10,877 nucleotides of DNA from Oscillospiraceae bacterium (GTDB taxonomy: Bacteria > Bacillota > Clostridia > Oscillospirales > Acutalibacteraceae), in the NCBI GenBank assembly GCA_009786735.1, contig WQRM01000041.1, forward strand, positions 1 through 10,877, given 5' to 3'. The notes beneath the pieces were generated by a model that was not told the origin of the DNA, made no database searches, and saw only the letters and a list, made by a program, of their open reading frames with translations. A program made the position numbers and the translations under genes. Shown here in pieces: positions 3,353-10,834 of this stretch. Numbering within the stretch: position 1 is the first letter of the stretch; the number at the start of each line of letters is the position of its first letter.

Positions 3353-3679
3353 ATGAGCGACAAATTCAAGGCCTTGGCAGACCCAAACCGCTCGGCGGTG
3401 TTCGCGCTGTTGTCGTGCTGCGAGCTTTGCGCCTGTGACATCCTCAAGCAGCTGCCCATCCACCAAACCACGCTGTCGCACCACATGAAAGTCCTGGTGG
3501 ACTGCGGCTTGGTGCGCACGCGGCGCGACGGCAAGTGCATCTATTACGCGCTCAACATCGACACCGTGCGTGACTGCGAGGCCTTTTTCACCGCTGCGCT
3601 CACCAAAGCTTGTCATTGCGGGCCGGACTGCAGCTGCCTGCATTGCTGTAATCTTTCACGAAAGGAGACTGCCCAATGA
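3353..3679 (+). CDS. ArsR/SmtB-family metal-responsive repressor with a Cys-rich tail
   Basis: A 108-residue winged-helix protein. It starts FKALADPNR as ArsR proteins do, has a recognition helix at about 38-48 (QTTLSHHMKVL), and a wing near 55-67 (RTRRDGKCIYYAL). A CCELCACD cluster at residues 22-29 matches the position of the ELCVCDL thiol site that binds As(III)/Sb(III) in classical ArsR, here with two extra cysteines just before it. The last 22 residues add a CHCGPDCSCLHCC tail (six Cys, residues 87-99); the whole protein has 13 Cys. It is therefore probably a repressor released by a soft metal or metalloid; which one cannot be told. The start has AGGAGG four bases upstream. Its TGA overlaps the ATG of the next gene. 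No efflux pump or arsenate reductase follows, which is unusual for an ars operon. Confidence 0.92.
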   Translation: MSDKFKALADPNRSAVFALLSCCELCACDILKQLPIHQTTLSHHMKVLVDCGLVRTRRDGKCIYYALNIDTVRDCEAFFTAALTKACHCGPDCSCLHCCNLSRKETAQ

Positions 3680-3798
3680 ACGAACAACGCACCTGCACCA
3701 ATCCGCTGTGCAAATGTGAAAACTGCACTTGCGACCCCTGCCTGTGTGACGGCGAAACCCATTGCGCCTGCCCCTGCTGCCCGGATGCCGCACAATAG
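3676..3798 (+). CDS. 40-residue metallothionein-like Cys-rich protein
   Basis: A tiny frame starting in the ATGA overlap with arsR and ending at TAG 3796-3798. I read 40 residues with 11 cysteines (positions 7, 12, 14, 17, 19, 22, 24, 30, 32, 34, 35), mostly in CxC and CxxC spacing, for example CKCENCTCDPCLC at 12-24 and HCACPCC at 29-35; no hydrophobic stretch. This is the composition and spacing of bacterial metallothioneins, and the middle part recalls the CACEPCLC segment of cyanobacterial SmtA. A GAAAGGAG site at 3659-3666 lies 9 bases upstream. Co-transcription with an ArsR/SmtB repressor parallels the smtB-smtA pair, although those are divergent. Likely role: binding or buffering soft metal ions in the cytoplasm. 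Alternatives are a metallochaperone or a Cys-rich modified peptide. Too short for default gene callers. Confidence 0.82.
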   Translation: MNEQRTCTNPLCKCENCTCDPCLCDGETHCACPCCPDAAQ

Positions 3799-3856: not shown

Positions 3857-3884
3857 CGGGTGGATTCATATCCACCCCTACAGG
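3857..3884 (-). repeat. Palindromic repeat family A, copy 1
   Basis: On the minus strand it reads CCTGTAGGGGTGGAT...ATCCACCCG. Core stem GGTGGAT/ATCCACC. The C-to-T change in one arm is matched by G-to-A in the other, so the hairpin is kept. Confidence 0.8.
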
Positions 3885-3990
3885 TTGCGGCAACTGGCAA
3901 ATTTTCGGGAAATATCTACCTGTAGGGGCGGATGCAAATCCGCCCGGGCTTTCCTATTCCACACAACTCGCCGCCAACCAAATCGCACAC
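3872..3990. repeat. 119-bp direct repeat, copy 1 (intergenic)
   Basis: Matches 4108-4226 at an offset of 236 bp with only two mismatches (3883 and 3907). It includes one family-A palindrome and, at its right end, a copy of the last 11 codons plus stop of scfB, read on the minus strand. The sequences diverge abruptly after 3990/4226. This copy therefore holds a dead fragment of the scfB 3' end. Confidence 0.9.
3919..3947 (+). repeat. Palindromic repeat family A, copy 2
   Basis: CCTGTAGGGGCGGAT, a GCAA centre, then ATCCGCCCGGG. Perfect GGCGGAT/ATCCGCC stem. Lies inside the first 119-bp direct repeat and is identical to copy 5. Confidence 0.85.
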
Positions 3991-4003: not shown

Positions 4004-4034
4004 ATTTTCACATGATCAACATGGCTATCGTCAG

Positions 4035-4062
4035 CATGTAGGGGCGGCGGGCGCGCCGCCCG
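4035..4062 (+). repeat. Palindromic repeat family A, copy 3
   Basis: Begins CATGTAGGGGCGGCGGG and ends CGCGCCGCCCG. Forms a larger inverted pair with copy 4 across a roughly 30-bp AT-rich spacer (4063-4092). Confidence 0.85.
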
Positions 4063-4092
4063 AAACCTTAATATAACCATATTTTTATCGCC

Positions 4093-4120
4093 CGGGTGGC
4101 GCGCCCGCCACCCCTACATG
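4093..4120 (-). repeat. Palindromic repeat family A, copy 4
   Basis: Inverted relative to copy 3 and, over all 28 bases, identical to the copy at 8084-8111 about 4 kb away. Lies partly inside the second 119-bp direct repeat. Confidence 0.85.
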
Positions 4121-4226
4121 TTGCGGCAACTGGCAAATTTTCAGGAAATATCTACCTGTAGGGGCGGATGCAAATCCGCCCGGGCTTTCCTATTCCACAC
4201 AACTCGCCGCCAACCAAATCGCACAC
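4108..4226. repeat. 119-bp direct repeat, copy 2 (overlaps scfB 3' end)
   Basis: Partner of 3872-3990. Bases 4190-4226 are the functional 3' end of scfB; the rest is intergenic. Because this copy is joined to the full gene it is probably the parent, and 3872-3990 the derived one. Confidence 0.9.
4155..4183 (+). repeat. Palindromic repeat family A, copy 5
   Basis: Identical to copy 2 as part of the 119-bp direct repeat. It sits 7 bp beyond the scfB stop codon and could act as an mRNA 3'-end hairpin; no T run follows. Confidence 0.85.
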
Positions 4227-5557
4227 TCCAGCCGCTTCTTAAACAGCACACACCCATCCTCATACATCCCGTGGATGCTCCCGCTGGCGTGGTAGGCGTT
4301 CGCCGGGCAGCCGCCCGCGCAAAAATACTTCGCCCAGCAGTCGCGGCACTCGGCTTTCGCGTGCAGGCTGCACCCCGCAAAATCATCGCGCAGGGCAGGG
4401 GAGGTAATCCCCTCGCGCACATTGCCCATGATAAACGCGCGGTTGCCCACAAACTGGTGGCAGGGATAAAACTCCCCATCAGGCGTCACCGCAAGATACT
4501 CCGTGCCCACGCCGCAGCCCGCCGTGCGCTTGTAGTAGCACGGCCCATGCCGCAAGTTCAGCGTGTAGTGGTAGAACGAGTAGTCGCCGTCCACCATGTC
4601 CAGCGCCAGTGCTTCGTATTCATCCAGCACGCGGCGCAAATCATCCGGTGTCAGCGCATGTGGCGCAGCAGGGGAGCACACCACAGGCTCCAGCGAAAGC
4701 GCGCGAAAGCCGAGCGCAACCATGTGCGCAATGTCCTGCAAAAAGTCGGTGTTGTGGTGCGTGAATGTGCCGCGGATGTAGTAGCCACAGCCCTCGCGCG
4801 CCCCCACCAGCCGCCGGAACTTCGGCACAACATCATCGTAGCACCCGCGTCCGTCGTGCGTTTTGCGCAGCCGATCGTGGGTTTCTTTGCGCCCATCAAG
4901 GCTCAGCACCACATTGCTGATTTCACGCTGGCAAAAGTCGATTACATCGTCGTCAATCAGCACGCCATTCGTCGTCAGCGTGAAGCGGAAATGCTTGCCG
5001 CTTTCGGCTTCTTTCCCGCGCGCATACGCCACCAACCGCTTGAGCACATCCCAGTTCAGCAGCGGTTCGCCGCCAAAAAAGTCGATGTCCAAGTTGCGGC
5101 GCGGCCCGCTGTTCGCCAGCAAAAAGTCAATCGCCGCCTTGCCCACGTCATAGGACATCAGCTGCTTGTCCCACGCGCGCACAAAGCAGTATTCGCACGC
5201 CAAATTGCAGGCATGCGCCATATGCAAGCACATCGCTTTGACGAACATCCCCCTCCGCTCCTGCGGAGCACCTCCCCCAGCGGGGGAGGCCTTGGCATTC
5301 CCATCGACCTTGCGGCTGTCGCCAGGGTCGCCCCCCTTGGGGGAGATGTCGCGAAGCGACAGAGGGGGTGAAATGATAATCTCTTGTGAGAACAACTTCC
5401 CCGCATCAATCAACGCCTGTATGTCGGGGAACTGCGTCTGATTCACGCTATCCCAGTGCTGCACCGCATGCAAAACAGACGGATCGACCACATGTATCGA
5501 TCCGCTGTTCACGTCCAGTATGATGTTTTTGCCGTGCAAAGTGTAGCAGTGCGTCAT
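4190..5557 (-). CDS. scfB: SCIFF ranthipeptide maturase, radical SAM/SPASM enzyme with an in-frame repeat insertion
   Basis: Forms thioether cross-links between Cys sulfurs and backbone carbons (Thr alpha-carbons in studied homologues) in the peptide encoded just upstream. 455 residues. The N-terminal peptide-recognition part (1 to about 60; NIILDVNSGSIHVVD) resembles other SCIFF maturases. The radical SAM core has CNLACEYC with cluster cysteines 117, 121 and 124, then FFGGEP at 160-165. The SPASM region has C348...C366, the CxxCxxxxxCxxxC motif at 404, 407, 413 and 417, and C436, for two auxiliary clusters. Between them, residues 63-103 are low-complexity (Pro/Gly/Ser/Lys-rich) and encoded by a hairpin-rich repeat (5249-5371), in frame and without stops, where relatives have a linker of about 15-20 residues. 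An ATG at 5246-5248 follows the repeat, but the matching N-terminal domain argues for the upstream start, which overlaps the scfA stop (ATGA). Confidence 0.95.
   Translation of the reverse strand: MTHCYTLHGKNIILDVNSGSIHVVDPSVLHAVQHWDSVNQTQFPDIQALIDAGKLFSQEIIISPPLSLRDISPKGGDPGDSRKVDGNAKASPAGGGAPQERRGMFVKAMCLHMAHACNLACEYCFVRAWDKQLMSYDVGKAAIDFLLANSGPRRNLDIDFFGGEPLLNWDVLKRLVAYARGKEAESGKHFRFTLTTNGVLIDDDVIDFCQREISNVVLSLDGRKETHDRLRKTHDGRGCYDDVVPKFRRLVGAREGCGYYIRGTFTHHNTDFLQDIAHMVALGFRALSLEPVVCSPAAPHALTPDDLRRVLDEYEALALDMVDGDYSFYHYTLNLRHGPCYYKRTAGCGVGTEYLAVTPDGEFYPCHQFVGNRAFIMGNVREGITSPALRDDFAGCSLHAKAECRDCWAKYFCAGGCPANAYHASGSIHGMYEDGCVLFKKRLECAIWLAASCVE
5249..5371. repeat. In-frame palindromic repeat element inside scfB
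   Basis: About 123 bp (41 codons) with CCCCCTC at one end and its inverse GAGGGGG at the other. It contains several hairpins: CCGC-TCCT-GCGG, CCTCCCCC-AGC-GGGGGAGG, and GTCGC-GAA-GCGAC. The last module resembles intergenic pieces at 9834-9844 and 10803-10813. Length divisible by three keeps scfB open. Boundaries are approximate, set by the change in base pattern and by comparison with what I recall of other maturases. Confidence 0.75.
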
Positions 5558-5700
5558 TCAGCTTGCTGCTCACACGGTTGATTGGCAACGCCGCAGCTGG
5601 TTTTGCAGGCGGATTGGCAGCTGGTTTGGCATTCGCCGCAGCCGCCGTCGCACAGGCTTTCTTGCAGAGTGCGGGTTTCCAGGGTCACAATACGTTGCAT
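5554..5700 (-). CDS. scfA: SCIFF ranthipeptide precursor
   Basis: A 48-residue peptide I translated from ATG at 5698-5700 to TGA at 5554-5556. The leader (MQRIVTLETRTLQES) is followed by the near-invariant SCIFF core CGECQTSCQSACKTSC at 21-36 and a closing GVANQPCE. Members of this family are modified by the adjacent radical SAM maturase, which installs Cys-derived thioether links. It has seven cysteines (17, 21, 24, 28, 32, 36, 43), one more than the name-giving six; Cys17 is the extra one. AGGAG lies 9 bases before the start; a dedicated promoter lies at 5746-5774. The stop overlaps the scfB start, so the two are co-translated. The mature product's function is not firmly established; a quorum-sensing role has been proposed in clostridia. 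Confidence 0.97.
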   Translation of the reverse strand: MQRIVTLETRTLQESLCDGGCGECQTSCQSACKTSCGVANQPCEQQAE

Positions 5701-7936: not shown

Positions 7937-8024
7937 CTTGATACCTCATTCTTAAAATTTGCTATTTTCGCCCATTGTGTTGATATATAGCCTGATATTT
8001 CCTGCAACTTGCTGCGTGCCGTAA

Positions 8025-8053
8025 CCTGTAGGGGCGGATGCACATCCGCCCGG
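8025..8053 (+). repeat. Palindromic repeat family A, copy 6
   Basis: CCTGTAGGGGCGGAT, GCAC centre, ATCCGCCCGGG. Differs from copies 2 and 5 by one base, in the loop. Confidence 0.85.
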
Positions 8054-8083
8054 GGCTTCAATAACACACATCTTTTTGCACTT

Positions 8084-8111
8084 CGGGTGGCGCGCCCGCC
8101 ACCCCTACATG
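8084..8111 (-). repeat. Palindromic repeat family A, copy 7
   Basis: Identical to copy 4 over 28 bases; inverted relative to copy 6, which lies 30 bp to the left. Confidence 0.85.
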
Positions 8112-8119
8112 CCGCGGCT

Positions 8120-8250
8120 TGATGAAAGCTGAAGAACACCGTTTCCTGAGCGGCCCTCGCGTTTACGCGGGGGCTGTCGCCGCGAACGAGACCTGCGCAT
8201 CGCACCACTGTGGTGCGGCGACTGGGGGTGCGGATTTCGCTGGCGCGTCC
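8120..8250. other. Hairpin-rich stretch of unknown nature
   Basis: Contains CCTCGCG-TTTA-CGCGGGG (about 8156-8173), a perfect CGCACCAC-T-GTGGTGCG hairpin (8201-8217), and GTCGCCGC (8176-8183), which can pair with GCGGCGAC (8215-8222) to enclose or compete with it. It could be a structured RNA or a further repeat family; I do not recognise it. Confidence 0.35.
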
Positions 8251-8280
8251 TGTTGTAATGTGCGTTTCAAACTTGCATGT

Positions 8281-8447
8281 GCTCCGCACGCCTTCCTCAC
8301 CCCTCGCGGCTCGGGGAGCTCCCTCCAGAGGAGAGGAGCTGGGGCTTGTTTCTTCAAGTTTCGATGTCGTTCACCGCTTAATCCTCGGCTCCTTCCTCTG
8401 GAAGGAGCTGGCACGCGCCGCGCGTGACTGAGGAAGGCTCGCGGAGC
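8281..8447. repeat. 167-bp imperfect inverted repeat, MITE-like
   Basis: Left arm 8281-8342 and right arm 8387-8447 are inverse copies: GCTCCGC-ACG-CCTTCCTCA at the left end against TGAGGAAGG-CTC-GCGGAGC at the right end, then shared CGCGGC and AGCTCC-TCCAGAGGA blocks inward, with a 44-bp centre. No transposase is encoded, and I cannot identify a target-site duplication. Confidence 0.75.
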
Positions 8448-8499
8448 GCCCCTGCGGGGCGCAGGTCGCTTCGCTGTGGTCTCGGACAGGTTGTGTCCG
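8446..8499. repeat. Two short GC hairpins next to the inverted repeat
   Basis: GCGCCCC-TGC-GGGGCGC (8446-8462) and CGGACA-GGTTG-TGTCCG (8483-8499), joined by GGTCGCTTCGCTGTG, which resembles the module at 10803-10816. Confidence 0.65.
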
Positions 8500-8504
8500 C
8501 GCAC

Positions 8505-8532
8505 CCTGTAGGGGCGGCAATCTTGCCGCCCG
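8505..8532 (+). repeat. Palindromic repeat family A, copy 8
   Basis: CCTGTAGGGGCGGCAA, TC centre, TTGCCGCCCG. The core GGCAA/TTGCC differs from the GGAT/ATCC of other copies, yet both arms change together and the stem remains. Confidence 0.85.
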
Positions 8533-8623
8533 AACCACAAAAAACGCACTCGTTATCCGCTTAAGCCTCGCCACCCAATCCCCAAAACACCTCAATACCA
8601 TGCTCAAAACGCGTTATAAATAT

Positions 8624-9788: not shown

Positions 9789-9828
9789 AAGACGACTAGA
9801 CTTTCCTTTTCATCAAAAAACTAGGATA

Positions 9829-9864
9829 GACCCCCGCGAAGCGACGGAGTCCCACCGCAGGTGG
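9829..9864 (-). repeat. Composite repeat module abutting the DUF2807 gene stop
   Basis: Contains GCGAAGCGAC and the inverted 13-mer CCCACCGCAGGTG (9851-9863), both seen elsewhere in the window. The stop codon of the lipoprotein gene (9865-9867) comes directly after it. Confidence 0.65.
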
Positions 9865-10785: not shown

Positions 10786-10818
10786 CACCTGCGGTGGGGC
10801 GATGTCGCTTCGCTGTGT
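10786..10818 (+). repeat. Composite repeat module, upstream of the lipoprotein promoter
   Basis: CACCTGCGGTGGG (10786-10798) followed by GATGTCGCTTCGCTGTGT. This is broadly the inverse of 9829-9864, so the lipoprotein and its promoter are flanked by related modules in opposite orientation. Confidence 0.65.
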
Positions 10819-10834
10819 CCGATCACAACCCCAT

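Follow-up and report, generated by a model that had tools for sequence, protein, structure and literature searches.

How does a maturase gene come to carry, within its reading frame, a stretch that looks like an intergenic repeat? The question is raised by scfB (4190..5557, minus strand) in the window, the whole stretch of 10,877 bp analysed here, which is contig C41 of a host assembly that totals 1,586,422 bases over 227 contigs (70.6% complete; G000, the window's own genome). Rickettsia provides the best-known protein-coding palindromes, and an earlier note on this DNA had suggested a comparable case in scfB. The gene codes for a SCIFF thioether radical SAM/SPASM maturase of 455 aa, which scores 565.9 bits against TIGR03974 (cut-off 425). 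It adjoins scfA (5554..5700, minus strand), whose translation is an intact, cysteine-rich SCIFF precursor peptide of 48 aa; the counterparts adjoining scfB in the two closest relatives, G001 and G010, are also 48 aa long and differ in 1-2 residues. The PDB homologue of ScfB is CteB (match 441.7 bits), and the PDB entries 5wgg/5why align with ScfB residues 102-451. Since this homologue has a solved structure, ScfB is a good test object.

The stretch in question is a palindromic element of 120 bp, which we call family A (5249..5368, minus strand). It encodes PPLSLRDISPKGGDPGDSRKVDGNAKASPAGGGAPQERRG, residues 64-103 of ScfB, and is absent from scfB of G001 and G010. The earlier note had placed its end at 5371 and given it 41 residues with no stop; the start and the open frame stand, but the element has 40 codons and ends at 5368, and the longer version takes in an adjoining codon as well (TCA when read on the coding strand). 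A deviating base pattern had also been noticed, and indeed the GC content of the element is 72.5% versus 58.8% for the window. The proposed terminal inversion is present, with CCCCCTC at 5249..5255 and GAGGGGG at 5362..5368 (plus strand). At least three nested hairpins had been described before; four were found, enclosed by an inverted repeat that is imperfect (71% complementary) and has arms of 48 nt, 5249-5296 and 5321-5368. On the plus strand these are GCTCC-TGC-GGAGC (5257..5269), whose stem sequence differs between copies while pairing is mostly retained, CCTCCCCC-AGC-GGGGGAGG (5271..5289) and, in the second arm, CCCCC-TT-GGGGG (5332..5343) and GTCGC-GAA-GCGAC (5348..5360). When 5245-5375 was folded, none of 200 shuffled sequences folded equally well, either as DNA (z -3.67) or as RNA (z -4.25). 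Pfam gave no domain match in the insert. A structured RNA of a known family was rejected, since Rfam had no match at E<=1 in the region 5100-5500.

ScfB was matched in 44 of 60 related genomes, and over the matched region its identity to the window protein is 87% in G001 and 84% in G010. Between the motifs LIDAGKLF and KA(M/L)CLH both relatives have 16 codons, versus 50 in the window, so that in close relatives this segment is not conserved as protein. As the net gain is 102 bp for an element of 120 bp, about 18 bp of the linker seem to have been replaced. The site is the linker between the RRE and the radical SAM domain, in agreement with the idea of a tolerant inter-domain position. The available text of PMC6231123 describes the linker between the RRE and AdoMet domains of CteB as long and flexible, and states a size of 22 residues in a sentence that prints CteA. 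The downstream cluster cysteines were said to remain, and all 14 cysteines that never vary in an alignment of 15 sequences are present, in a frame that stays open over 455 aa. In the core of scfB (337-342 codons), dN and dS were 0.081 and 0.893 between the window and G001, 0.100 and 0.855 between the window and G010, and 0.091 and 0.830 between G001 and G010. The core of ScfB thus remains under purifying selection, with dN/dS about 0.1, and in the lineage bearing the insert it has evolved no faster than in its relatives.

A wider view of the linker came from a protein search which returned 7984 ScfB homologues at E<=1e-100, 120 of them listed. From 82 of these 120 the linker could be extracted by pattern, with a median of 23 residues counted from GKLF. 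Only two of the 82 exceed 45 residues, those of the window and of the homologue P0006, and both contain element residues. P0006 is 68% identical to the window protein and carries GGDPDDSRKLEDVAKGSP in the same linker, versus GGDPGDSRKVDGNAKASP in the window. Among the matches listed, P0002-P0005 (81-85% identical) have no insert; P0004 and P0002 resemble the proteins of G001 and G010, so that this group adds two insert-free homologues beyond those. Because homologues closer than P0006 lack an element-like insert, we infer from its protein sequence that P0006 probably represents a second, independent insertion into the same ScfB linker. The linker of G001 itself contains AQRSD, encoded by the 14-mer ACAGCGAAGCGACG, of which 400 kb of G001 contain nine copies, and AQRSD is possibly a remnant of another repeat.

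Such variation could also be the ordinary kind: a lineage-specific, GC-rich and Pro/Gly-rich linker arising from normal indels, with a superficial likeness to intergenic DNA. The varying length and sequence of the linker among ScfB homologues would suit this, as would the lack of a Pfam match. Searches of the host genome with the element speak strongly against it. BLAST returned 96 matches to family A at the loose limit of E<=10, the best of which besides the element itself, in an unrelated ORF on contig C27, is 90% identical over 100 bp (E 2.4e-33), and on this ground both chance and an ordinary linker were rejected. A second family, B, of about 165 bp and with similar arms, gave 94 matches at E<=0.01. 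Merged, the matches of both families define 53 sites on 48 contigs, a number that includes short partial matches of 20-30 bp and omits rows merely repeating a place. These many copies, the short linkers of the closest relatives and a peptide motif shared by the C27 ORF and an insert in DnaE of G001 leave the ordinary linker with hardly any credibility. As the earlier note had it, modules of the element also occur between genes; they are not restricted to such places, however, as 5 of the 53 sites, scfB included, lie within genes. The 120-bp stretch is therefore very probably one of the copies of a palindromic repeat that is mobile without being autonomous, tolerated in the linker and translated, which would act like the Rickettsia palindromic elements (RPEs) but in a member of the Bacillota.

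The copies were also compared for pairing. The arms of both families, gathered from all loci, numbered 94 and comprised 65 distinct stems, 62 of them of at least 12 nt. All five outer positions are paired in 29 of these 62, compared with 6.5 on average and 16 at most among 1000 re-dealt controls; position 1 of the stem is largely fixed by the search pattern used. At position 4 the pair is G-C in 23 stems, C-G in 19, A-T in 17 and T-A in two, with one unpaired. At position 2, 29 of the 62 stems do not pair (T-C in 24); this and the fixing of position 1 count against the main explanation. Since the copies mostly keep pairing while the stem sequences change, the spread of the element probably relies on its hairpins.

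Family A was matched in few genomes. At E<=1e-5 it was found in 5 of 14 genomes of the genus, where the matches in G010 span only the arm common to family B, and at E<=1e-8 in one of 295 sampled genomes of the order (at most two candidates per genome scored, which lowers the sensitivity), and this one is the window's own. With these counts, a wide spread of family A was rejected.

Other repeats and a further short ORF were seen in the window outside scfB. A palindromic family D (TGTAGGGGCGG..CCGCCCG) lies between genes at 3857-3946, 4032-4123, 8024-8112 and 8502-8534. A block of 119 bp (3872-3990) is repeated with 98% identity at 4108-4226 and includes the last bases of scfB. By eye, the intergenic region 8140-8480 is a dense mosaic of repeat families with A- and C-like arms, and two inverted copies of yet another repeat, 77% complementary to each other, lie towards the right-hand end of the window (9825-9863 and 10786-10824). 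At 3353-3798, an ArsR-type regulator is followed by a short cysteine-rich ORF starting at about 3676, whose predicted product looks like a metallothionein-type peptide.

In the host genome, gene calls from a purpose-written caller put 4 of the 53 sites inside ORFs that show coding signal to either side of the repeat. Besides scfB, these are the unnamed C27 ORF, which has no Pfam match, a low-molecular-weight phosphatase joined to GNAT on C113, and mnmG on C154; the fifth in-gene site, in yggS at the edge of contig C12, was added manually. The C27 ORF is shorter by 38, 38, 35 and 35 codons in G001, G010, G009 and G012, respectively, where the site is empty. The C113 site is also empty in G010, which is 22 codons shorter, and, by alignment, in G001. 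The phosphatase-GNAT acetyltransferase fusion (L014:980-1861) is matched at E<=1e-10 by 13 of the 14 genomes of the genus. In mnmG, site 1 is empty in G001 (34 codons shorter) and holds a different repeat, of family C, in G010 (15 codons longer). Site 2, read by eye, is occupied by family C in the window's genome, by family D in G001 and by a composite in G010. At site 1 of G001 mnmG (L149) there is a short tandem repeat of the TACGCATTGCGCATT type where other genomes have palindromic elements.

Insertions of this kind were also found in the relatives, where 3 of 23 repeat loci read are embedded in ORFs, again with coding signal to left and right. In G001, the replicative polymerase DnaE contains two in-frame repeat copies in opposite orientations, and relative to G010 these two sites show differences of 52 and 46 codons. 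None of the nine further genomes in the alignment of site 1, and none of the six at site 2, has the insert; the window's own genome, a 70.6% complete draft, gave no DnaE match. In G010, a repeat with coding signal on both sides lies inside a P-type ATPase ORF. Wherever orthologues were compared for scfB, the C27 ORF, phosphatase-GNAT and DnaE, they were without inserts.

These copies bear on whether the element might never become protein, being skipped by ribosomal bypassing or removed by RNA excision. Hairpin elements are bypassed by ribosomes in yeast mitochondria, and the mRNA of the scfB element is predicted to form a strong nested hairpin of -75.7 kcal/mol, which could impede translation and is counted against the main explanation. 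In the search for unbroken spanning ORFs, which places frame-breaking copies outside the counts, the in-gene copies are stop-free and in frame despite elements of 127 and 130 bp, lengths that three does not divide. This argues against skipping, which would not require frame, as does the lack of an Rfam match, and we regard skipping as very improbable. The translation of the insert into ScfB is instead suggested by the open frame, the purifying selection on the gene and the recurrence of such insertions. Predicted tryptic peptides within residues 64-103 include GGDPGDSR and ASPAGGGAPQER.

The recurrence across other genomes and genes also weighs on a technical explanation, by which scfB would have been fused by mistake with a repeat of the assembly graph. 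Assemblies typically break at repeats, and the present one is a metagenome draft. Nevertheless, the 455-aa protein is recorded on two contigs, the longest being 39,205 bp against 10,877 bp for the window contig, and both scfB flanks are in frame, so that a chimera is scarcely believable. In a sample of 400 kb of G001, 158 repeat regions cover 18.1 kb. Twelve of them lie within ORFs, in a sample of which 84.8% was called coding. Eight of the twelve have coding signal on both sides and seven were retained, in six ORFs: a phosphoribosyltransferase, RluD, LigD, acetaldehyde dehydrogenase, EutC and an ORF of 1027 aa with two repeats and no Pfam match. The region at C1:135181 was dropped as a repeat insertion, since it reads as an ordinary internal protein repeat. 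In RluD, 310 residues of G001 align with 295 codons of the window's genome, one TGA being marked in the match. At L270:13409-15058 and 16789-17601 of G001, repeats lie in linkers beside terminal helices of acetaldehyde dehydrogenase (C-terminal) and EutC (N-terminal), positions which by eye resemble microcompartment targeting tails.

These counts also concern a possible use of the insert. The 40 residues in ScfB might have been domesticated and kept as useful, for example by giving the RRE extra reach. The element-like insert in the same linker of P0006 could be read in this way, as could the absence of stops from all six frames of the window copy. The inserts in general, however, are found in functionally unrelated proteins and mostly in one lineage where compared, and repeats are scarce within genes of the G001 sample, as if mostly harmful, which makes domestication unlikely. 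More probably, the element would be selfish DNA which serves as raw material for protein segments and which ScfB does not need.

The course of events that we propose is as follows. Within a small clade of Oscillospiraceae, family A would spread through the genomes and would have reached the ScfB linker in an event akin to transposition, with the replacement of the 18 bp or so mentioned above. The insert may survive because the linker joining the RRE, which binds the leader peptide, to the radical SAM domain tolerates a change of length. Transcribed and translated, it would form a Pro/Gly-rich loop of 40 residues, probably unstructured, that does not destroy the maturase.

As to how the element moves, its flanks and the aligned empty sites, inspected by eye, showed no target-site duplication. 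REP/BIME palindromes are hairpin units with conserved pairing which go with RAYT transposases. The present unit differs from them in being longer and two-armed, and within the genus the presence of repeats is not matched by that of a Y1 transposase: PF01797 was found in 4 of the 14 genomes (G000, G001, G005 and G013), while it had no match in the repeat-carrying G009, G010 and G012 (66-86% complete). A Y1/RAYT enzyme as the mobiliser is therefore not supported. Spread by phages or plasmids was rejected as well, since viral contigs had no match to an exact 30-base pattern, 50,697 phage records yielded one weak element match (74%) and plasmids none.

The likeness to RPEs drawn in the earlier note is apt for the mode of action: both are palindromic, multicopy and inserted in frame into unrelated genes. 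As far as the available text of PMC10969869 goes, RPEs are, like the repeats described here, short palindromes (about 150 bp) of several families with many copies. Like the repeats of this clade, those of Rickettsia and Wolbachia lie in frame in unrelated genes, the known ones typically in non-structured segments (excerpts of PMC10969869 and PMC2996958). Here we found a palindrome of 120 bp with copies inside and between genes, and in-frame insertions absent from orthologues in scfB, the C27 ORF, phosphatase-GNAT and, twice, DnaE. Unlike RPEs, whose hosts are intracellular alphaproteobacteria rather than Oscillospiraceae, family A has a GC-rich two-arm layout with variable but mostly paired stems; the comparison is one of layout and behaviour. 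With MITEs, family A shares small size, terminal inverted repeats (here CCCCCTC/GAGGGGG), scattered copies and occasional in-frame fusions (portions of PMC10969869 and PMC5896051); by eye, no target-site duplication was noticed. SMR-A of Haloquadratum walsbyi is also similar, with about 110 bp, inverted terminal repeats and no target duplication, and its mobilisation is given as unknown in the accessible part of PMC3119063. It differs from family A in being archaeal; the same part remarks that it hits other mobile elements and describes no in-frame insertion into genes (PMC3119063). Protein-coding palindromes are named for Rickettsia, Wolbachia and Methanocaldococcus jannaschii in excerpts of PMC2996958. 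In its available text, a 2024 review of MITEs treats RPEs as an extreme case of in-frame insertion and allows that other prokaryotes could conceivably show something similar (PMC10969869). Among the best-ranked titles and starts of abstracts, with few subscription journals covered, we found no report of such insertions in Clostridia or other Bacillota, a faint indication of their absence.

Taken more broadly, we are inclined to think that at least four recently active palindromic families enter the same linkers repeatedly in this clade of gut bacteria, with perhaps tens of translated inserts per genome, in a process of the Rickettsia type that arose independently in Bacillota. Repeat-derived residues in proteins of this clade should not be taken for domains. 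If this reading is true, filled and empty sites of one gene in Bacillota would allow intergenic DNA to be watched as it becomes protein, and one could ask which positions tolerate inserts and whether any are kept for use. The repeats would then be a continuing source of new protein segments, even in DnaE and MnmG.
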